From: Erythrobacter neustonensis
GTDB lineage: Bacteria; Pseudomonadota; Alphaproteobacteria; Sphingomonadales; Sphingomonadaceae
Reading direction: 5' to 3'
Length of the DNA: 64,000 nucleotides
Assembly (NCBI RefSeq): GCF_001663175.1
Contig: NZ_CP016033.1
Coordinates: forward strand, 682,001 to 746,000
Each line of letters starts with the position of its first letter. Within the stretch, counting starts at the first letter, position 1. The notes under the pieces were generated by a model. It made no database searches. It worked only from the letters and a program-made list of their open reading frames with translations, and had not been told where the DNA came from. Position numbers and translations under genes: made by a program. Positions 4,364 to 12,965 of the stretch are shown here, piece by piece.

Positions 4364-4437
<74 letters not shown>

Positions 4438-4638: not shown

Positions 4639-5868
4639 ATGCCGCTGACAGATGTTGCGATCCGGAACGCCAAGCCGCGAGCGAAGCCCTACAAGGTGGG
4701 CGACACTCTGGGCTTGTTCCTCTTGGTGCAGCCGTCAGGCGGAAAGCTGTGGCGGGTCAAATATCGCATCGACGGCAAGGAGAAGAAGCTGGCGATCGGC
4801 ATCTACCCTCAGGTCGGCCTCGCGGAGGCGCGGCGCAGGCGTGATGCCGCCCGCGAGTTGGTCGCTGCTGGCAAGGATCCTGGCCGTGAGAAGCAGCGCG
4901 AGAAGGTGCGGTCGCGCATCCAGGCTGAAACTACCTTTGACGCCATCGCCGCCGAATTCTGCCAAAAGCGCAGGCGTGATGGTCAAAAGGCCTGGGCGGT
5001 GAGCACGGCCACGCGCAGCGAATATCTGCTGTCGCTGCTCAAGGGATCGATCGGCAAGCTACCCATCACGGATATTGAACCCGCTGACGTCTTGATTGCC
5101 GTCCGTAAGATCGAACGCAAAGGCCAACTGGAAAGCGCCCGCCGCACCCTTCAGCTGGCGGGTGCGGTGTTCCGCTATGCGGTCGCCACCGCCCGCCTCG
5201 CTTCAGACCCCACGCGTGACCTGCGTGGCGCGCTGACCGCGCCAACCGTCACCCACTACGGCGCGATCATCGACCCGGCGCGCGTGGGTGAGCTGATGCG
5301 CGCTATCGACGGCTATGAAGGCCAGCCGATCACCAAGCTGGCGATGCAACTGGCCCCACATGTCTTCGTCCGCCCAGGCGAGTTGCGCCACGCCGAATGG
5401 AACGAATTCGATTTCGAGGGAGCACTGTGGACCATCCCGGCGGGCAAGACGAAGATGCGCAAGGATCATCTTGTCCCGCTCTCGCGCCAGACGATTGCGA
5501 TCCTGAAAGACCTCCATGCCCTGACCGGTCCCGACGGGTACGTCTTCCCTTCGATCCGCTCCCGCAAGCGCCCAATGAGCGACAACACAATCAACGCAGG
5601 CCTGCGCCGCCTCGGCTACTCCACTGACGAAATGACCGCCCACGGCTTCCGCGCGATGGCCTCAACCCTCCTCAACGAAAGCGGCAAGTGGCACCCCGAC
5701 GCAATCGAGCGCGCGCTGGCTCACGGCGACAGCGACAGAGTCCGCGCTGCCTACCATCGCGGCGCACACTGGAAGGAGCGCGTAGCCATGGCGCAATGGT
5801 GGAGCGACCACCTAGACCAGCTGCGGAAGGGGGCCGAGATTGTGCCGATCAAGGCGGGAAAGCGGTGA
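4639..5868 (+). CDS. int: P4-type tyrosine-recombinase integrase
   Basis: A 409-residue site-specific recombinase. Residues about 3-85 form the DUF4102/P4-integrase N-terminal domain (LTDVAIRNAKPRAKPYKVGD). A SAM-like core-binding domain follows. The catalytic domain shows the first Arg in RPGELRHAEW, the H-x-x-R box in HGFRAMAS, the second His in ALAHGD and the nucleophilic Tyr in VRAAYHRG. It catalyses integration and excision at the tRNA-Gly attachment core and is oriented away from the tRNA. The start fits a GGAAAGGACCGAGGGCC leader just upstream of ATG 4639. All catalytic residues appear intact, so the island may still be mobile. Confidence 0.95.
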   Translation: MPLTDVAIRNAKPRAKPYKVGDTLGLFLLVQPSGGKLWRVKYRIDGKEKKLAIGIYPQVGLAEARRRRDAARELVAAGKDPGREKQREKVRSRIQAETTFDAIAAEFCQKRRRDGQKAWAVSTATRSEYLLSLLKGSIGKLPITDIEPADVLIAVRKIERKGQLESARRTLQLAGAVFRYAVATARLASDPTRDLRGALTAPTVTHYGAIIDPARVGELMRAIDGYEGQPITKLAMQLAPHVFVRPGELRHAEWNEFDFEGALWTIPAGKTKMRKDHLVPLSRQTIAILKDLHALTGPDGYVFPSIRSRKRPMSDNTINAGLRRLGYSTDEMTAHGFRAMASTLLNESGKWHPDAIERALAHGDSDRVRAAYHRGAHWKERVAMAQWWSDHLDQLRKGAEIVPIKAGKR

Positions 5869-6422: not shown

Positions 6423-8177
6423 ATGAATGCACCCCCAAACCCCTGCGCGGGTGGCGTCCAGCCACAGGGTCAGCAGCTAGGCGTCAGTCGCCCACTGCAG
6501 GAGCGCCGGATTCTAGGAGCTTACTATACGCCCGAGCGCCTTAGTCAGTTGCTAGCCGATTGGGCGATCCGGGACGTTTCAGACATTGTCCTTGAACCCA
6601 GTTTTGGCGGGTGCGGCTTCCTATCCACAGCCCACAATACGCTGACGCGTCTCGGCCATGCTGAACCGATCCGCCAGATCTTCGGCTGCGACATTGACCC
6701 GGTTGCATTCGAATATCTGGCAGGCGTGTTCGGCCACGATGCCGACATCAGCGGATTTATACAGCGCGACTTTCTCGATTGTCATGCAGTTCAGGAATGG
6801 CCCGAACGATTCTCGGTGGTTCTGGCCAATCCCCCCTACATTCCTCACCAGCGCATCGGTAAAGCGCGGGTGCGTGAACTCTGGCAAAGGCCGCAGGGGA
6901 TTTCCGGAGTTAAAGGACGCTCGAGCTTATGGGCGTATTTCCTGTCCCATGCCGTAAGCCTGTTAAAGCCCGGCGGTCGCATGGCGTGGGTCTTGCCCGG
7001 CGCCTTTCTTCAGGCAGACTATGCCGCGCCGATCCGCACGTACATCGGACAGCGGTTCGCTCGCGCTGCGGCTTTCGTCATACATGAGCGACTGTTTCTG
7101 GCCGAAGGTGCAGATGAAGAGACAGTTATTTTGTTGGCCGATGGCCATGGATTGCCCAGCCTCGGCGACGGCCTGGAGGTGGGCGAAGCAGGAACACTCG
7201 ATGAGCTAGCCACGTTAATTGAGCAATGGGGTGCGCATACTTGGGTCGGCCGGACTGGCACTATTGCGCCGGCCAAGCTTAGCTTTACCACCGACGCGGA
7301 GGCGATTTACGACACCTTGTCAGCGCGGCCCGACGCCTTCCTGCTCGGCCAGCTTGCGAAGGTCCAGATCGGCCTTGTTACGGGCGACAACAACTTCTTT
7401 GTGCTCAACGGTAAAGCCTGTGTGGCCGCTGGTCTCGCCAACGGCGATTGTACACGTGTGCTCTCCAAGTTTCGCGCGGCTACTGGCATCAGCTTGAGCG
7501 TGGCTGACCTCGATATCTATGACGCTCTCGGTGGCAAATCATTCCTAGTCCAATCTGACGGAGAGGCGACCAGTGATGCGGTCCGAGCCTATCTTGATCG
7601 CTATCCCGCTGCACGCCGTGAAAGCGTCAGCACATTCAAGAAGCGTCCGGTTTGGTCAATGATTAGCGACGGAAAAACGCCGCACGCCTTTTTCCCAGTC
7701 ATGCACCATCACGGGCCGCGGCTTGTCCTTAACAGTGGCAATTTACACTGTACGAACACGATTCACCGTGTGTTTTTCACGGACAAGCTCTCGACTTCGC
7801 GGCAGAAATTGGCGGCCCTGTCGATATTGACGACATACAGCCAAATCTCAGCAGAACTCTGTGGTCGGCGTTACGGATCAGGCGTCCTCAAGCACGAACC
7901 GCGCGATGCAGAACGCATTAGCTTGTTGATGCCGGCGGCTGTTGATCTGGATGACCTCGATCGCATCTATCTGCAGGTCGATGCGCGACTGCGTGATGGC
8001 GATGCAGAAGGCGCTCGTTCAATCGCCGATGAGGCGCTCTGGCGCTGGTCTGGCGTTGTGCTTACCGGCAGTCAGCGGGGAACGCTGAACAATGTACTGG
8101 ATGCCATGCGTGAGCGTCGTCGTCCGGACCGCCGGGTCAAACCCAGCTTCCGTTCCACATTCGCGCCAAAGCCGTAG
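6423..8177 (+). CDS. N6-adenine DNA methyltransferase, Eco57I/type IIG-like, without visible nuclease
   Basis: A 584-residue SAM-dependent DNA methyltransferase. Motif X (RRILGAYYTPERLSQLLADW) is at about 28-47, motif I (LEPSFGGCGFL) at 57-67, motif II (GCDIDP) at 88-93 and the catalytic motif IV (NPPY) at 136-139. The C-terminal half (about 250-560) should be the target-recognition region. The motif order is that of gamma-class adenine methyltransferases of the Eco57I type. The protein begins directly at the methyltransferase domain, so the PD-(D/E)xK domain usual in type IIG enzymes is absent. It is convergent with, and overlaps by 41 bp, the 224-aa gene of the neighbouring operon, suggesting the two units travel together. 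Role: likely self-marking for a restriction or defence system. Confidence 0.9.
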   Translation: MNAPPNPCAGGVQPQGQQLGVSRPLQERRILGAYYTPERLSQLLADWAIRDVSDIVLEPSFGGCGFLSTAHNTLTRLGHAEPIRQIFGCDIDPVAFEYLAGVFGHDADISGFIQRDFLDCHAVQEWPERFSVVLANPPYIPHQRIGKARVRELWQRPQGISGVKGRSSLWAYFLSHAVSLLKPGGRMAWVLPGAFLQADYAAPIRTYIGQRFARAAAFVIHERLFLAEGADEETVILLADGHGLPSLGDGLEVGEAGTLDELATLIEQWGAHTWVGRTGTIAPAKLSFTTDAEAIYDTLSARPDAFLLGQLAKVQIGLVTGDNNFFVLNGKACVAAGLANGDCTRVLSKFRAATGISLSVADLDIYDALGGKSFLVQSDGEATSDAVRAYLDRYPAARRESVSTFKKRPVWSMISDGKTPHAFFPVMHHHGPRLVLNSGNLHCTNTIHRVFFTDKLSTSRQKLAALSILTTYSQISAELCGRRYGSGVLKHEPRDAERISLLMPAAVDLDDLDRIYLQVDARLRDGDAEGARSIADEALWRWSGVVLTGSQRGTLNNVLDAMRERRRPDRRVKPSFRSTFAPKP

Positions 8178-8811
8178 ACTCGCTCACCGCGAGAGACTGC
8201 GTGAGCCGAGCGACATAGTCCGTAAAACACAGCTTCTGCAGGCGGCGTATTGCATCACACCATGCTGGATCATCGCGGACCGACCGCGCCCACTTCGCTG
8301 GAAAGAAATTTGCAGCCAAGACCTCACATAAAAGGCCAAGCTCCAAAGGTGGATGACACCAACGCGGCTCCGCGATCGGAAGTTCGCGGTCCCGGAATCC
8401 AGGCAAGTGGCCGCCCATCTGCAGATGAAATAATGGCCCTTGCTGGCCGATGTTGGCCCGATCAAGATGCCACCGGCAGACGGGTTCACCTGCGGCGTTT
8501 GTAATGGCGACAGCGACATCAAGCGTGACAAACGGAGGATGGCTGACAACATCTTGATCGATTACGATGCGCTCGGCCGAAAGGGCGATTGAGATTTCCG
8601 CTCCGTCCTTGTCCTGCACTCGCTCGAAGGTAATCGCACGTTCCCGCGCTATCCGCGTTGTCCAGCTCGTTTCTTTCTTGAGCTTCGCTAACCGAAACGA
8701 TTCGTCGCGCAGCGCCGCTGCTCCTTCGACGGTCAAAATGTCGGCAGCCTGCAGCTTCTCTCCGATCACACGGAGCGCATGCCCCGCTTCTTCCGCATTT
8801 AGGTAGGCCAT
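8137..8811 (-). CDS. Unknown 224-aa protein, last gene of the kinase-receiver operon
   Basis: I do not recognise this family. The protein is 224 residues, soluble, with an N-terminal helical region (about 1-60, Ala/Glu/Lys-rich), a middle beta-rich region (about 60-150, with DVAVAITN and WHLDRAN) and a C-terminal helical part with several Trp and Cys residues. No signal peptide, membrane segment or obvious nuclease, protease or nucleotidyltransferase motif is visible. It starts 7 bp after the receiver gene stop, so it is almost certainly cotranscribed and probably acts with it. Its 3' end overlaps the convergent methyltransferase gene by 41 bp. It is a candidate effector or adaptor of the system. 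Confidence 0.75.
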   Translation of the reverse strand: MAYLNAEEAGHALRVIGEKLQAADILTVEGAAALRDESFRLAKLKKETSWTTRIARERAITFERVQDKDGAEISIALSAERIVIDQDVVSHPPFVTLDVAVAITNAAGEPVCRWHLDRANIGQQGPLFHLQMGGHLPGFRDRELPIAEPRWCHPPLELGLLCEVLAANFFPAKWARSVRDDPAWCDAIRRLQKLCFTDYVARLTQSLAVSESTALARMWNGSWV

Positions 8812-8818
8812 TGCTGGT

Positions 8819-9916
8819 TCAGGTCTTTCGCTGACGCGTCTTGATGCCCACGATCAGTGAGGCGTCGCTCTCTTCGATTTGCCACGGATGGCCGTCATTC
8901 AGATAACGGTCGGTCTGGATGCAGTCCCAGCAGATGCGTCGACGAGCTGCGAACCGCGGAGCTCTACTCTCAAACACCGCGAGTGAGTGACGTAACTCGG
9001 TTGGGCGTCGGCAGCTGCAACAGGCGAAACCGACATACTCGTCACTACTATGGTTCCAAGGTGATGCTGCCGGCTCGAGTGCTTCTCCGAAACGAACTGA
9101 CAGTGCCTCCGCACGCTGCTGCGCCGTCAGATCAAGCAGCGGCTTGCCTGTGATGTTCTCGCCCCACTCCTCTAGCCGATTGGCCCACCAACGACGCCAG
9201 CCCTCGCTGAATATACCGGTATACAACAGATCATCAGCTGTAAGTGCTGGCACCAGCTTGAAGAAGCTATCGATTTTTAGGCCCAGCAGCGATGCGGCAT
9301 CCGCATCATCGAGGAGTAGGCCCGGTCGCTTAATGATGGCATTCAGAACGAACTTCGCCGCCAAATGTGGGGCCGAGGCGTCGCTGAGCACGCTTGCGAT
9401 GGATTGAATGCGGACTCGGTCGACCTCCGCCTCCGAGGCACTGAGTAGCACAACTGGATCATATTTCTTGTTCAATTCACGTAGAAATTGATAGCCGTTG
9501 CTTAAAGCGCATAGTTCTGCCCGAACGCGCGCGCGCTCGGAAACTACAATTTCTTTTGCATATACAATATCAAACAGATCATGTGCAGTCCGGTCTGGAG
9601 CGAAATATGCCTCCAACTTGTAGTCGTTGCTGACAAGAACGATCCCGAAATCATGGTCCGGATTGACGATTGCCTCGTCCCGTAACAATTGAGCAAGGCC
9701 ACTACCCTTAAAGGTATGGCCATTCTCGACATTGGGGGTCACCTCGTCGAGCCGGTAATCTAGCGCAACGACATTCGGCTGTGCCAATCTGATGGCGAGC
9801 GCCTGATCGGTAAGTGGCGCTACCGCATGGTAATCAAAATCAAGCACACCGCGTGTACTTAGAAGAGCGGCGAATTGCTGATCCTCGTCATCGACAAAAA
9901 TTCCTTTTGCGGGCAT
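8819..9916 (-). CDS. Receiver-domain protein with C-terminal zinc ribbon
   Basis: A 365-residue protein. Residues 1-125 form a response-regulator receiver-like domain with the acidic cluster D9-D10-E11 (GIFVDDED), a phosphoacceptor candidate D53 (VVALDYRLDEV), Ser96 in the Thr/Ser position (VLVSND) and Lys121 (VYAKE). The roughly 170-residue middle region is helical and unidentified. Near the C-terminus, C299-x2-C302 and C329-x2-C332 form a predicted zinc ribbon. No known DNA-binding output domain is seen. ATG 9916 is chosen because the receiver begins there, and it lies 2 bp after the stop of the dual-ATPase gene. It is the likely phosphotransfer or binding partner of that protein. Confidence 0.85.
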   Translation of the reverse strand: MPAKGIFVDDEDQQFAALLSTRGVLDFDYHAVAPLTDQALAIRLAQPNVVALDYRLDEVTPNVENGHTFKGSGLAQLLRDEAIVNPDHDFGIVLVSNDYKLEAYFAPDRTAHDLFDIVYAKEIVVSERARVRAELCALSNGYQFLRELNKKYDPVVLLSASEAEVDRVRIQSIASVLSDASAPHLAAKFVLNAIIKRPGLLLDDADAASLLGLKIDSFFKLVPALTADDLLYTGIFSEGWRRWWANRLEEWGENITGKPLLDLTAQQRAEALSVRFGEALEPAASPWNHSSDEYVGFACCSCRRPTELRHSLAVFESRAPRFAARRRICWDCIQTDRYLNDGHPWQIEESDASLIVGIKTRQRKT

Positions 9917-9918
9917 CG

Positions 9919-12456
9919 TCACGCCGCTCCTTCTGCCGACAGCACGCTGAACTCCATCCTGCACGCATACCCCTCAGTAGGAATACCGACGTTGGCCGTG
10001 CCGCCGTAACTTTCCGCGACATCGGAGACAATTTTGAGCCCTAGGCCAGTGCCAGGCCCAGCGACACCATCATCCTCGCCCATAGTTGTCGTAAAGAAAG
10101 GATCAAAAACTCGATCCTGCAGATCCTCGGGGATGCCCATACCATTGTCCTCGAAAGCAACTACGATATGGCGCCCATGCCGCCTTGCCTCAATGCGGAT
10201 ACGACGATCATCGACTTTTGCGCGCTTCATCGACTTAATCGCATTGGTCAGGAAATTGAGCAAAACGGAATCGAGTTCTGAAGCATGCATGGGCGTGGTC
10301 CGCAGCTCCTCCGGCTCTACGTCGATATCAAATATAACCCGCTGCTTCGCCATATAATTCTCAAACTGCCGGGTGAAGCGATCAATCGCCCCCTTCACCG
10401 ACAAGTCGCGCAATTCGCGACTTTCGGTGCGAGACATTAGAGCGCCGATGTAACCTCCGATGTCGAACAAACGTTCTGCCGACCGTTGCAGATCGGCGTG
10501 CTGACTGCGAAGATCGTGCTGGAGGCGGTTATCTGGCACTTCACCGATGATGTCTTCAAGAAGGAGCAGGTTGGCTAACAATGCACTTTCGGCGCCCTTC
10601 ACTTCGTGACCGAACACGCTGATCGACAGACCCAGCGAAGCCAAAATGCGGAGCATTTCCTCGTATTCAATCGACGCTGCAATCTTGGCTTCGACATCGG
10701 CTTCATACTGGCGAACAACCTGAGCAAGTTGCCGCAGATCATCTTGGCGAGAGGTCCCCTCGGCGCCCGTTGCGTTGTGAGTGGAATCGTGTCGGCGCAA
10801 AATTTCGTCCACTACTGTGGAGGGACGAACCCGTGTTGAGGTAAAGCCCTTCTCCCCAGCACGCTGCTTGCGTTTGCGGGTCGCCGCAACGCGTAACGCA
10901 GCCCACTCAAGCGCCCAGCGAGTGAAGCTTCTAAGTTCCTCGAAAGCCTCATTTTCAATTAGGCCTTCGCGGCTGCTCGTTTCCTCAAGCAACGGATTGG
11001 AGACAGCGGAAAGGACCACATGCCCAAAAAAGTTGAAGTTGTTGGCCGGAACGAGCAGATTCCGCCGCCCAGTGTCATAAGCAAGCGCGAGCCAGTCATC
11101 ACTCGGCTCGCCATATGGCTGGACCCTGAAGCCATTGCGGTAGATGCGGACACCGCCAAATTCTCGTCCCATCGCCGCTGCAGCCGCCTGAGAAATGCCG
11201 CCTAGTAGCGAGGTTTCATAAATGAAGTACCGACTTTCAAGTTTGAATGATCCGACAGTTAAATATTGATCAGGGCACTCCTCTGTTTCATCGATACCGA
11301 GCTTGTCAGACCGAAGACGAACAAAACCTCGTCCGTCTTGATCGACTTCAGCTTCGATTGTCGCGGTTGCCCTATCAAGAAAGGAGCGCTCAATCGAAAA
11401 GATCTCCGTTTGCCTGCTCTGCGTTACGTCATTAATGACGACATGAAAGCCTGGGTCGGGGGACGATGTCTCGGTCAGATCATTTCGCCGTGGCGCTGGA
11501 GCTGCAAGCGGGAACGGCGCTTGCAGCAGAACGACCGCCTTCCACACCCGCTCGATCGCCGCTTGCGACCACGCATCGCGCAGGTCGATGATCTCGAGAG
11601 TAGTACCCTGATCGCTCGGGTCCTTGTCGAACCGCTCGATACGGCTGAAGACATCTGAAAGCGATATGCCAGGTCGAAAAGCTTCGTCCCAATCAAAGTA
11701 AGCCCGATATCCAACCGGTTCGCCAGCTGGTTTTGACGTAAAGTGCAGCCGACTTCCAAGCCGCTGAACCGAAAAACGGCCAATCCCTTTCCGTCCAGCT
11801 CTAGTGCGGCCGAAGATCGGCGAACGAGGTTCTTCCTCTTTCAAATTTGTCGAAATGCGCATCCAAGATGACCGGATCACGGCTTCGGTCATCCCCGTAC
11901 CATTGTCAGCGATACGTAAGGATCCACCGATTTTGCCATGCCCGGTAAAATCGAGCGTGACCCTTGTCGCATCTGCATCATACGCATTCTTGATTAGTTC
12001 GGAGAGCGCTGTCTCCTGTTTACTCACGAGCTGCTCGCCGAGTCTTTGAATATGGGCCGCGTCGACCGAGAAGCGAATCGCATCCGGATCACTGTCGACT
12101 GCTGCGCGGCTCGCGGCCTCAATGACCCGCCAATCAGGGTTCTCTTTTTTTAACTCATCGCCAACTTCTGACACCCACGCCGGAATCGGGTCAGTATTCT
12201 TAGCGCGACTATCGTGGCCATTTTCTTCAGTGGCTGCAATCTTACGTGCAATGCAGGACTGCGCGCGGCCATTTTGGTCCCGCGATACATACCCTTCAAT
12301 GACCGTAACAACCTGTCCGTTGCGCAGTCCTTTGCGCGTCTCATGGTCAACCTGTAGCGGAATCAAGGTACCGCCCTCGCCTACAAGGCGCACGTACCAT
12401 GTGCCATCGACTTGAAAGACAGATCCGATCAGAGAGGTAGGGTTGGCCTCGTTCAT
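9919..12456 (-). CDS. Dual GHKL ATPase: Hsp90/MORC-like domain fused to a histidine kinase-like domain
   Basis: An 845-residue soluble protein with two complete Bergerat ATP-binding folds. Residues 8-75 form a small beta-rich domain. The first GHKL module has its N box ELIKNAYDADA at 153-163, G1 DNGTGM at 184-189 and G2 GRKGIGRFS at 221-229. It is followed by an Hsp90/MutL-like transducer (about 330-510, with VRIYRNGFRVQPYG and NPLLEETSSREGL). A helical linker (575-680) carries a DHp-like FGHEVKG with His617. The second GHKL has its N box around NFLTNAIKS (734-742), G1 EDNGMG, FDPFF and G2 GPGTGLGLK at 800-808, as in sensor kinases. It is the first gene of an operon with the receiver gene. 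No membrane segment is present, so it senses a cytosolic signal. Confidence 0.9.
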   Translation of the reverse strand: MNEANPTSLIGSVFQVDGTWYVRLVGEGGTLIPLQVDHETRKGLRNGQVVTVIEGYVSRDQNGRAQSCIARKIAATEENGHDSRAKNTDPIPAWVSEVGDELKKENPDWRVIEAASRAAVDSDPDAIRFSVDAAHIQRLGEQLVSKQETALSELIKNAYDADATRVTLDFTGHGKIGGSLRIADNGTGMTEAVIRSSWMRISTNLKEEEPRSPIFGRTRAGRKGIGRFSVQRLGSRLHFTSKPAGEPVGYRAYFDWDEAFRPGISLSDVFSRIERFDKDPSDQGTTLEIIDLRDAWSQAAIERVWKAVVLLQAPFPLAAPAPRRNDLTETSSPDPGFHVVINDVTQSRQTEIFSIERSFLDRATATIEAEVDQDGRGFVRLRSDKLGIDETEECPDQYLTVGSFKLESRYFIYETSLLGGISQAAAAAMGREFGGVRIYRNGFRVQPYGEPSDDWLALAYDTGRRNLLVPANNFNFFGHVVLSAVSNPLLEETSSREGLIENEAFEELRSFTRWALEWAALRVAATRKRKQRAGEKGFTSTRVRPSTVVDEILRRHDSTHNATGAEGTSRQDDLRQLAQVVRQYEADVEAKIAASIEYEEMLRILASLGLSISVFGHEVKGAESALLANLLLLEDIIGEVPDNRLQHDLRSQHADLQRSAERLFDIGGYIGALMSRTESRELRDLSVKGAIDRFTRQFENYMAKQRVIFDIDVEPEELRTTPMHASELDSVLLNFLTNAIKSMKRAKVDDRRIRIEARRHGRHIVVAFEDNGMGIPEDLQDRVFDPFFTTTMGEDDGVAGPGTGLGLKIVSDVAESYGGTANVGIPTEGYACRMEFSVLSAEGAA

Positions 12457-12948: not shown

Positions 12949-12965
12949 TCCCGCTACCCGCTCCA
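12949..12965. repeat. Right attachment site (attR) of the genomic island
   Basis: An exact 17-bp direct copy of the tRNA-Gly 3' end. Beyond the core, the next 25 bases (TTCCCCAAAAGCCGCAGAAA and on) resemble those following the tRNA (TTCCCAAAGAGCCCCAGAAA). The homology between the two ends therefore extends imperfectly past the core. Confidence 0.88.

Follow-up and report, generated by a model that had tools for sequence, protein, structure and literature searches.

Two-component modules in which a HEF_HK kinase and a Response_reg_2 receiver lie beside restriction-modification (R-M) genes have been predicted (Bellieny-Rabelo et al. 2021, PMC8011034), and Iyer et al. 2008 (PMC2292703) described paraMORC GHKL ATPases among R-M systems. 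Detocs (PMC11249213) provides defence through two-component signalling encoded in a small operon, and in GHKL-Shedu (VcSduA, paraMORC3; PMC12137116) a GHKL ATPase controls the defence response. Here, we compare with them a cassette of four genes found in the window, a 64,000-nucleotide stretch of Erythrobacter neustonensis DNA. The genes encode an adenine methylase (MT), a dual-ATPase histidine kinase (HK), a receiver protein (RR) and a protein of unrecognised fold (SMALL), and our results support that they form one unit in defence-type mobile contexts.

The tRNA island and its four proteins

The cassette lies on an island integrated at a tRNA-Gly(TCC) gene (4364..4437, forward strand, found by ARAGORN). 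The island bounds are exact, as the 17-bp 3' end of this tRNA (attL, 4421..4437) recurs as an exact repeat at 12949..12965 (attR), both on the forward strand, and the unoccupied integration site is present in two relatives (L050 and L063). These features confirm the preliminary description of a tRNA island carrying a methyltransferase and a three-gene cargo, and the four genes are the sole cargo that we recognise. The island's tyrosine integrase (4639..5868, forward strand; Arm-DNA-bind_3, Phage_int_M and Phage_integrase in Pfam) has a relative in genome G1131 that occupies the same tRNA and shares 73% of its nucleotides, and a second one, with 84-87% identity, in genome G1122. In G1131, a type IIG R-M enzyme follows the integrase at the place where the window has the cassette.

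MT (6423..8177, forward strand) is a gamma-class N6-adenine methyltransferase of the Eco57I/M.Eco57I kind, recognised by Pfam and PADLOC. It matches the PADLOC model MTase_II with an E-value of 3e-57, as a type II-like N6 methylase, and its NPPY motif is invariant in the 12 rows of alignment A11. The closest PDB structures include 7lni, which we take to be the solitary methylase CamA.

HK (9919..12456, reverse strand) is a dual-GHKL histidine kinase of 845 aa, assigned from Pfam matches and homologues. Its N-terminal GHKL ATPase (HATPase_c_3, residues 148-248, 11713..12015, reverse strand) is of the paraMORC/BbrUII kind according to Pfam, PADLOC and NCBIfam: the PADLOC REase_II model PDLC03419 matches residues 127-245 (E 1.5e-14) and NF050001 (BbrUII/HgiDII) partially matches residues 128-300 (E 5.9e-20), so that the matches to restriction-enzyme models are confined to this ATPase part. 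No nuclease or helicase domain was matched in HK by Pfam. The C-terminal half carries the kinase ATPase (HATPase_c, residues 726-825, 9982..10281, reverse strand; Pfam E 2.5e-26) and the putative phosphoacceptor H617 (FGHEVKG, 10606..10608, reverse strand), placed by its position in the H box. The residues of the two ATPase sites and of the phosphorelay hardly vary: 14 of the 16 HK residues checked are kept in 130/130 sequences, among them H617 and, in the N-terminal ATPase, E153, N157, D160, D184, G188, G221 and G226, while D770 and G774 are kept in 129.

RR (8819..9916, reverse strand; 365 aa) consists of a receiver, a helical region and a cysteine-rich tail. The receiver (residues 1-151, 9464..9916, reverse strand) has the residues D9, D10, D53, S96 and K121; D53 is present in 129/130 sequences, with one gap, S/T96 in 130/130 and K121 in 129/130. 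A complete phosphorelay set is therefore found in the two proteins, with the phosphoacceptor histidine and the N, G1 and G2 boxes on one side and the receiver aspartate, acidic pair, Ser/Thr and Lys on the other, and the kinase-to-receiver phosphorelay postulated earlier is well supported by this conservation. The earlier label of a receiver-zinc protein held in part: the receiver is intact, but the four cysteines that probably bind zinc (residues 299-332, 8921..9022, reverse strand) are a lineage-specific feature, complete in 74/74 sequences of alignment A5 but, as a set, missing from the ten divergent RR proteins examined. The part that follows the receiver has a helix-strand order resembling a winged helix, and MarR_2 and Dimerisation match weakly in 2/74 members each. 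If this helical region serves to bind DNA, which is conceivable, the output of RR could be transcription.

SMALL (8137..8811, reverse strand; 224 aa), a candidate effector or adaptor, overlaps MT by 41 bp at its 3' end. Across 58 homologues, W114, D117, Q123, H129, G133, G134, H135, P149, R150, H153 and N168 are invariant and H115 is present in 90% or more; a regular expression written for this motif was too narrow, missing many true members, and was used for no count. The SMALL core aligns with divergent SMALL proteins at an hhalign probability of 97.7 (E 1.6e-12). The AF2 model has a pLDDT of 94.7, and fold searches against the PDB gave no match to a solved structure. Neither RR nor SMALL has a meaningful match in Pfam, PADLOC 2.0.0 or NCBIfam, with none to the PADLOC and NCBIfam models at E-values up to 1. 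The preliminary description had seen no nuclease motif and had named no effector. The first statement stands, as Pfam, PADLOC, NCBIfam and fold searches found no nuclease or other effector signature in RR or SMALL; the second gives way to a candidate, since SMALL forms a conserved family marked by a motif of its own and is, by prediction, the best choice for this role.

A likeness of SMALL to DUF2290 is a lead only. None of the 58 SMALL members matched PF10053 (DUF2290), and profile comparisons were mixed across the several groupings tried, the figures being uncorrected for that number. Ten divergent SMALL proteins aligned at an hhalign probability of 45 (E 2.2e-4; score 35.2, where the highest of 60 column shuffles reached 23.1) and have the pattern FxFD...HP..H..G...RxP in common with DUF2290, and three type-2/TH2 proteins gave E 5.9e-4. 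The window-class proteins were not significant (P 0.025), though above 20 shuffles and a reversed control, and two subsets gave P 0.023 and 0.067. All SMALL proteins pooled gave E 3.1e-4 over a different, N-terminal stretch of 42 columns without the motif.

Linkage, genomic context and trio exchange

The preliminary description had proposed to tabulate how often the four homologues occur together, and the tabulation bears out their linkage. We found MT, HK, RR and SMALL together in 21 loci that extend from Alphaproteobacteria to a Hymenobacter plasmid, and thus across two bacterial phyla. This count leaves out two loci cut by contig ends (L012 after SMALL, L081 at HK) and a third, L080, in which HK lies at the end of the contig and is split into two open pieces; it takes duplicate contigs once (L043 = L004; L078 and L079 = L012; L097 = L082) and retains L002, with an edge fragment of MT and an interrupted HK, and L090, whose RR and SMALL were assigned from their place in the locus, their motifs and low HMM scores (7.4 and 6.0 bits). 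Loci collected through RR held HK and SMALL in 12/12 cases and MT in 11/12 (the exception being L012), and the reverse search with MT alone recovered HK, RR and SMALL in 7/7 viral-contig loci. MT is retained in four arrangements around the trio of HK, RR and SMALL, often as a separate unit in the opposite orientation. Mantel comparisons of 11 sequences gave 0.81 for HK-RR, 0.69 for HK-MT, 0.62 for RR-MT, 0.58 for RR-SMALL and 0.55 for HK-SMALL, each reached by at most 6 of 5000 permutations, but just 0.25 for SMALL-MT, where 620 of 5000 permutations were as high.

The cassette is rare, with RR in 1/385 and 2/396 genomes and SMALL in 1/398, counts that include its own genome each time and may be too low, as few candidates were scored per genome. 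Scans of viral contigs with RR and with SMALL returned one contig each, the identical one, and a search of 50,697 phage records with the prophage-type HK of L082 gave nothing at an E-value of 1e-30. For 30 of the 39 SMALL homologues on contigs of at least 5 kb, the longest contig equalled in size that of a listed RR or HK homologue, a weak lower bound into which 120 of 175 RR and 119 of 2302 HK homologues entered and on which we build nothing. On plasmids, searches with HK and with RR yielded Hymenobacter alone, so that plasmid TH2 was seen only through MT: 33 plasmid records hold MT relatives, and among the six opened, the trio is present in TH2 only (MT 53% identical, HK 29%), the other five having different genes around the MT relative. 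A PDB search with one of these neighbouring proteins gave no match.

In prophages, the cassette occupies the slot between integrase and repressor, a described antiviral hotspot (Rousset et al. 2022, PMC9122126). A PADLOC scan of neighbours covered 84 of 100 listed proteins from 9 of 12 loci, and among the best 25 of 81 families the matches included a phospholipase, TniQ and a methylase. Follow-up of ten proteins (eight neighbours and two cargo proteins of the L075 island) placed Avs2 alone among the neighbours, near the L005 cassette.

Pairs of related loci reveal exchange of the trio. Between L096 and L097, MT is 99% identical and the flanking proteins 97-100%, while HK, RR and SMALL are 29, 26 and 25% identical; between L099 and L100 the values are 95% for MT and 28, 23 and 25% for the trio, with 60% for the flanking integrase and 56% for the repressor. 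This joint replacement of three genes next to an MT that hardly changes bears on a reading in which HK and RR are an ordinary pair controlling transcription, MT is a regulated orphan-type methylase that alters gene expression and SMALL plays an accessory part as a ligand-binding protein or adaptor, with no immunity involved. The winged-helix-like order and weak domain matches of RR, together with 7lni among the best relatives of MT, speak for such epigenetic regulation. We nevertheless regard it as unlikely, because it sits poorly with the exchanges, with an MT that is often a separate, opposite-strand unit, with the mobile elements and antiviral hotspot in which the cassette resides, and with the type IIG enzyme that replaces it in G1131.

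The exchanges also weigh against a true type II R-M system, in which SMALL would be an unrecognised nuclease and HK-RR an added ATP- and phosphate-dependent switch: the specificity of that nuclease would have to be kept at 25% SMALL identity while MT hardly changes. This reading can point to a Vsr endonuclease that follows the receiver in L033, a HEF_HK relative, at the position of SMALL here, and to the likeness of the N-terminal ATPase of HK to PDLC03419 and NF050001. The 58 SMALL members matched 11 Pfam families, none of them a nuclease family, and PDB fold searches, which could miss a nuclease, gave no match; we find this reading improbable.

R-M modules can act as addiction modules, as is established and as Bellieny-Rabelo et al. 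(PMC8011034) also note, and the presence of the cassette on islands, prophages and plasmids would suit a maintenance module in which loss of MT lets HK, RR and SMALL kill the cell, for the benefit of the element and not for phage defence. Maintenance alone, however, neither requires two ATPase sites with a phosphorelay nor explains the replacement of trios at a phage hotspot, and it is compatible with defence; we give it little credence, on a par with the type II reading.

A proposed phosphorelay-based mechanism

Our evidence leaves evenly balanced the proposal that the cassette is an R-M-like immune module in which a phosphorelay would replace the restriction enzyme. Its elements differ in standing: a role in defence against mobile elements, suggested by the genomic context, is quite likely, and phosphotransfer from HK to RR, suggested by the conserved residues, very likely. 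MT, judging from its family, would methylate adenine in a specific motif and probably serves as the self mark. HK would be a soluble sensor, with its N-terminal GHKL ATPase and middle region forming a clamp of the MutL/MORC kind, and may detect either DNA without the mark or an infected state. Its C-terminal kinase domain would phosphorylate H617, in keeping with the invariant residues, and the phosphate would move to D53 in the intact receiver of RR. Phosphorylated RR would then, through its C-terminal half, release or activate SMALL, which would execute a response that is most likely enzymatic, given its strongly conserved His/Asp/Asn motif, which lies on predicted strands; we place this effector role slightly below an even chance.

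Because the trio changes deeply while MT stays 95-99% identical, it is hard to square the exchanges with a direct reading of the motif by HK, except where the specificity comes from MT or from some general signal of infection. It is tempting to hypothesize, though only tentatively, a distinct class of self/non-self immunity, in which one protein, at once a clamp ATPase of the MutL/MORC type and a histidine kinase, would read the methylation state of DNA. His-Asp transfer would then hand the decision to attack to the receiver, which would control a new effector superfamily, SMALL. Within this clamp-kinase reading, different trios could serve beside a methylase that stays nearly constant, so that the methylase, rather than the response, would carry the specificity. 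The exchanges pose the question of whether target specificity comes from the methylase or from the kinase. If the proposal is true, R-M and two-component signalling, which are usually treated apart, are joined in a mobile four-gene unit, and a protein family with no recognised fold gains a defined position, motif and partners.

Comparison with described systems

Several described systems resemble the cassette in one respect or another. In BREX and MADS (methylation-associated defence), too, the partners of an adenine methylase are not a classical restriction enzyme, but MT falls below their model cut-offs (10 bits versus 500 for NF033452, PglX; 25.2 versus 720 for NF047738, MAD2). Detocs has a nucleoside-phosphorylase-type (PNP) effector; such a domain is absent from the Pfam matches of the four proteins, and the cassette has a linked methylase instead. 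GHKL-Shedu is a single protein with a DUF4263 nuclease, and DUF4263 is not among the Pfam matches of HK. The antiviral system composed of a helicase and DUF2290 (Rousset et al. 2022, PMC9122126) belongs to the same kind of hotspot as the prophage cassettes, which, unlike it, have no helicase. The paraMORC and BbrUII/HgiDII proteins, like HK, are encoded near methylases and begin with a GHKL ATPase to which a further domain is joined; HK differs from them in its histidine kinase half and its receiver partner.

The preliminary description had matched the four-gene set to no named system. This remains so for RR and SMALL, which lack a meaningful match among the Pfam, PADLOC and NCBIfam models, but not for HK, which is homologous over its length to HEF_HK kinases (hhalign probability 100, E 7.6e-41). 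Both kinases have the architecture HATPase_c_3, DHp and HATPase_c, and both are encoded among R-M genes, with the receiver gene next to the kinase and a methylase alongside, and the HEF_HK relative L033 has the gene order of the cassette, MT-HK-RR-third gene. The methylase of the HEF_HK modules is a C5-cytosine enzyme (4/4 tested), whereas that of the cassette is an N6-adenine, Eco57I-like one. Their receivers are ORFs of 542-721 aa with PF19192, in contrast to the 365-aa RR; PF19192 was found neither in RR and G000 nor among 25 of the 27 families listed for the 74 members, and RR aligns with the Response_reg_2 proteins of A6 at an hhalign probability of 35 over 205 columns that start with the receiver. 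Their kinases carry PF19191, which was found neither in the window HK at E-values up to 1 nor among 20 families of 24 HK members. Vsr is a common neighbour of theirs, where the cassette has SMALL, a protein with no counterpart in those modules; the idea that SMALL corresponds to part of a Response_reg_2 protein was rejected (hhalign probability 0.3 against A6). The predicted HEF_HK/Response_reg_2 modules are the closest known relatives of the cassette, which differs from them in methylase class, receiver family and third gene and would place the HEF_HK/paraMORC kinases of the 2021 prediction in a functional context.

Boundaries and relatives of the island

The genome holding the window is a single contig of 3.09 Mb, in which a tRNA-Gly gene (4364-4437) serves as the integration target, with a tyrosine integrase gene 3' of it (4639-5868). 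We found that the 17 bases closing the tRNA gene are repeated exactly at only one place in the window, attR (12949-12965), and that in two loci of the same genus (L050, L063) the tRNA end runs straight into sequence matching the window 3' of 12965, at 81 and 74% identity. This junction represents the empty site and fixes the island boundaries, so that the tRNA island put forward in the preliminary description is borne out. Its recognised cargo comprises a methylase gene (MT, 6423-8177, forward strand) and, on the reverse strand, the genes of a dual-GHKL histidine kinase (HK, 9919-12456), a receiver protein (RR, 8819-9916), and a 224-aa protein (SMALL, 8137-8811). All four lie between the integrase gene and attR. 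The latter three, here called the trio, are separated by gaps of 2 and 7 bp and converge with MT, whose end overlaps that of SMALL by 41 bp; this confirms the tight three-gene operon, convergent with a methyltransferase, that had been described earlier.

At the same tRNA-Gly site in another genome (G1131; L075 2227-7414), a related integrase (73%) is followed by a type IIG restriction-modification (R-M) enzyme (E 0), and the element can therefore carry an R-M system instead of the cassette. In G1122 (L074 1732-3474), the same tRNA is followed by an integrase region 84-87% identical to that of the window and then by sequence with no similarity to the cassette; this element is a relative of the window's element without cassette cargo.

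Recurrence of the four genes and exchange of the trio

We searched by pattern for members of the RR family and recovered one viral contig together with 11 loci from named genomes (Roseococcus, Devosia, Magnetospirillum, three Sphingomonas, Limnobacter, Sphingobium, Novosphingopyxis, a member of the Rhodobacteraceae, and one of the Hyphomonadaceae). The order HK, RR, SMALL was kept in all 12, and MT was present at 37-54% identity in 11, the sequence of the remaining locus (L012) stopping after SMALL; the Devosia MAG (L002) holds only an edge fragment of MT. In that same locus (438-2732), HK is interrupted into two open pieces, by assembly error or decay, while RR and SMALL are open. Searching viral contigs with MT alone gave seven loci (33-36% identity), every one with HK, RR, and SMALL. 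An HK search of the same contigs gave four loci, two of them on contigs already found by the RR or MT searches; of the others, one carries HK-RR-SMALL but is truncated toward MT, and the other is truncated inside HK.

Cassettes were also found on two plasmids. A Hymenobacter plasmid (L083) carries four genes in a row, namely HK (560 bits), RR (144 bits), SMALL (29.6 bits, against 8.9 for the best of 900 shuffles), and an Eco57I-type methylase that scores 31 bits against a profile of window-type MT. A plasmid of Rhizobium sp. TH2 (L090) combines an MT 53% identical to that of the window with a divergent trio (HK 29%), whose RR and SMALL have HMM scores of just 7.4 and 6.0 bits and were accepted on position and motif. 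An annotated Piwi-domain gene and a DNA methyltransferase lie beside the Hymenobacter cassette (L083 2291-7928), and an annotated GIY-YIG nuclease gene lies immediately 3' of the SMALL-like gene in TH2 (L090 675-1604); the latter may be a fifth gene, and an effector, of the TH2 cassette class.

Tabulation of homologues, as proposed in the preliminary description, found the trio genes recurring together and all four genes in 21 loci, window included, a count that takes in L002, with its MT edge fragment and interrupted HK, and L090, with RR and SMALL assigned by position and motif. Across these loci, MT is convergent with the trio in 10, upstream and co-directional in nine, downstream in one, and divergent in one. 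MT thus shifts place and strand yet is retained, which argues that it is functionally tied to the trio. Among 11 sequences, distances co-varied (Mantel) at 0.81 for HK-RR, 0.69 for HK-MT, 0.62 for RR-MT, 0.58 for RR-SMALL, and 0.55 for HK-SMALL; the value for SMALL-MT, 0.25, was not significant.

Prophages L096 and L097 are 99% identical in integrase, repressor, and MT, whereas their trios run in opposite directions and are only 29 (HK), 26 (RR), and 25% (SMALL) identical. Similarly, L099 and L100 share an MT at 95% identity (integrase 60, repressor 56%) and trios at 28, 23, and 25%, respectively. In trees without support values, the TH2 MT is sister to the window MT and the TH2 HK falls on a distant branch. 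Together, the prophage pairs and TH2 argue that the trio is swapped as a unit while the methylase beside it stays nearly constant. The type 2 trio also has two extra small ORFs upstream of HK, of 140 and 124-126 aa (L096 9525-10325, L099 9813-10619); the L096 pair had no PHROGs match.

Conserved features and a proposed mechanism

MT belongs to the gamma-class N6 methylases of the Eco57I/M.Eco57I type (Pfam, PADLOC), with an NPPY motif invariant in 12 sequences. Two GHKL ATPase domains are present in HK, HATPase_c_3 at residues 148-248 and HATPase_c at 726-825, and the kinase half is similar to histidine kinases of known structure (2c2a among others, E ~1e-16). Toward the N-terminus of HK, residues 128-300 match the N-terminal part of one restriction-enzyme model, BbrUII/HgiDII NF050001 (E 5.9e-20), and residues 127-245 that of another, PADLOC REase_II (E 1.5e-14). 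The ATPase and phosphorelay residues are intact: among 130 HK sequences, of which ten are divergent, E153, N157, D160, D184, G188, G221, and G226 on the N-terminal side, as well as H617, E618, N734, N738, G772, G804, and G806, are kept in all, and D770 and G774 in 129. An N-terminal domain of ~75 residues (window 12232-12456) is present in 23 of the 120 HK homologues listed, window HK included, and in L009 (440-700) a homologous short ORF stands free directly upstream of HK; this domain is possibly a sensor or regulator that can be separated from HK.

The predicted model of RR shows a receiver at residues 1-151 (mean pLDDT 92.1). D53 and D10 are each kept in 129 of 130 sequences (one gap each), and D9 in 128 (the other two being a gap and a Glu); every sequence has Ser (S96 in the window RR) or Thr at position 96, and 129 have the Lys of K121. 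The region after the receiver, with the order helix-strand-helix-helix-strand and weak MarR_2 and Dimerisation matches in relatives (2 of 74 members each), appears winged-helix-like. A four-cysteine set is present in 74/74 close relatives; the full set is absent from all ten divergent RR, two of which have C-C-H-C at the aligned positions.

SMALL has no Pfam family match, and its confident model (pLDDT 94.7) found no structural match in PDB or viral structure searches. Across 58 members, D117, H129, G133, G134, P149, R150, H153, and N168 do not vary, and H115 hardly does; in a set that includes three remoter members, P126, H129, G133, P149, R150, H153, P155, and N168 are still invariant. By predicted secondary structure, H115/D117 and H129/Q131 fall on strands, from which their side chains may face one side. 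The pattern FxFD...HP..H..G...RxP is common to six PF10053 (DUF2290) proteins and ten divergent SMALL, the latter from TH2, Hymenobacter, and both prophage types (1 and 2), and hhalign between the two sets gave E 2.2e-4 (prob 45, score 35.2, 60 column shuffles reaching at most 23.1). Other groupings gave 5.9e-4, 0.023, and 0.067, the window's class alone P 0.025, and all SMALL pooled 3.1e-4, but with the alignment on a different, N-terminal stretch. A distant kinship with DUF2290 is possible. DUF2290 makes up one half of an antiviral system already published, and passages of PMC10952713 that mention it assign it no function.

Beyond the observed gene content, linkage, residue conservation, trio swaps, and genomic context, we propose that MT would mark self DNA, HK would sense, phosphate would pass from H617 to D53, and RR would control SMALL, which would act. 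GHKL modules followed by an S5 domain use ATP to drive work on DNA and on protein complexes, as established for MutL and topoisomerases and discussed in passages of PMC2292703, which makes the first half of HK a plausible sensor of DNA or of a complex. Since trios fall to ~28% identity while MT stays at 95-99%, the simplest prediction places sequence specificity in MT. The trio is then predicted to read either the state of MT on DNA or some general sign of infection.

Probable defence context and relation to known systems

Six of the seven viral loci recovered through MT have an integrase-type ORF close to it (by PHROGs for L082/L097, by similarity for the others), and the repressor on the far side is confirmed in four of the six (L096-L098, L102; by PHROGs directly or 99% identity); the arrangement in L082 is integrase, repressor, CII-like activator, and replication-nicking protein. 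The integrase-to-repressor slot is an antiviral hotspot of prophages in the account excerpted from PMC9122126, and the matching arrangement suggests that cassette-bearing prophages are of this kind. The cassette is sparse, at 1/385, 2/396, and 1/398 genomes in three surveys, each counting the window's genome; RR also occurs in G722, from the family to which the window's genome belongs. Defence genes are often sparsely distributed. The cassette of Sphingomonas endophytica has a 1481-aa Avs2 homologue nearby (L005 2549-6991). Against a defence reading, a prophage-type HK found no match among 50,697 phage records.

The closest known relatives are the HEF_HK/Response_reg_2 modules, treated in a portion of PMC8011034 as predicted kinase-receiver modules beside R-M genes. 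A search of 398 genomes from the phylum found their receiver, PF19192, in 10, the window's genome not among them. A kinase of ~990-1155 aa adjoins this receiver in all ten loci, the methylase beside it is C5-cytosine in 4/4 loci tested, and Vsr lies 3' of it in the single locus tested for Vsr. In PADLOC 2.0.0, RR and SMALL had no match at E up to 1, and the open-access literature matches listed hold no description of the four-gene combination. The earlier statement that no named system matches therefore stands for the combination but not for HK, whose family is alike to HEF_HK kinases in profile comparison (prob 100, E 7.6e-41). In contrast, RR reaches only prob 35 against PF19192-type receivers and SMALL prob 0.3 against proteins of these modules. 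The cassette, with its adenine methylase and with a receiver family and third gene that differ from theirs, is therefore a sister class of HEF_HK/Response_reg_2, not a member. The cassette is a real and unusual, unnamed, cross-phylum four-gene module joining methylation to phosphorelay, and it represents a variant of the predicted kinase-receiver kind with putative defence and effector roles.
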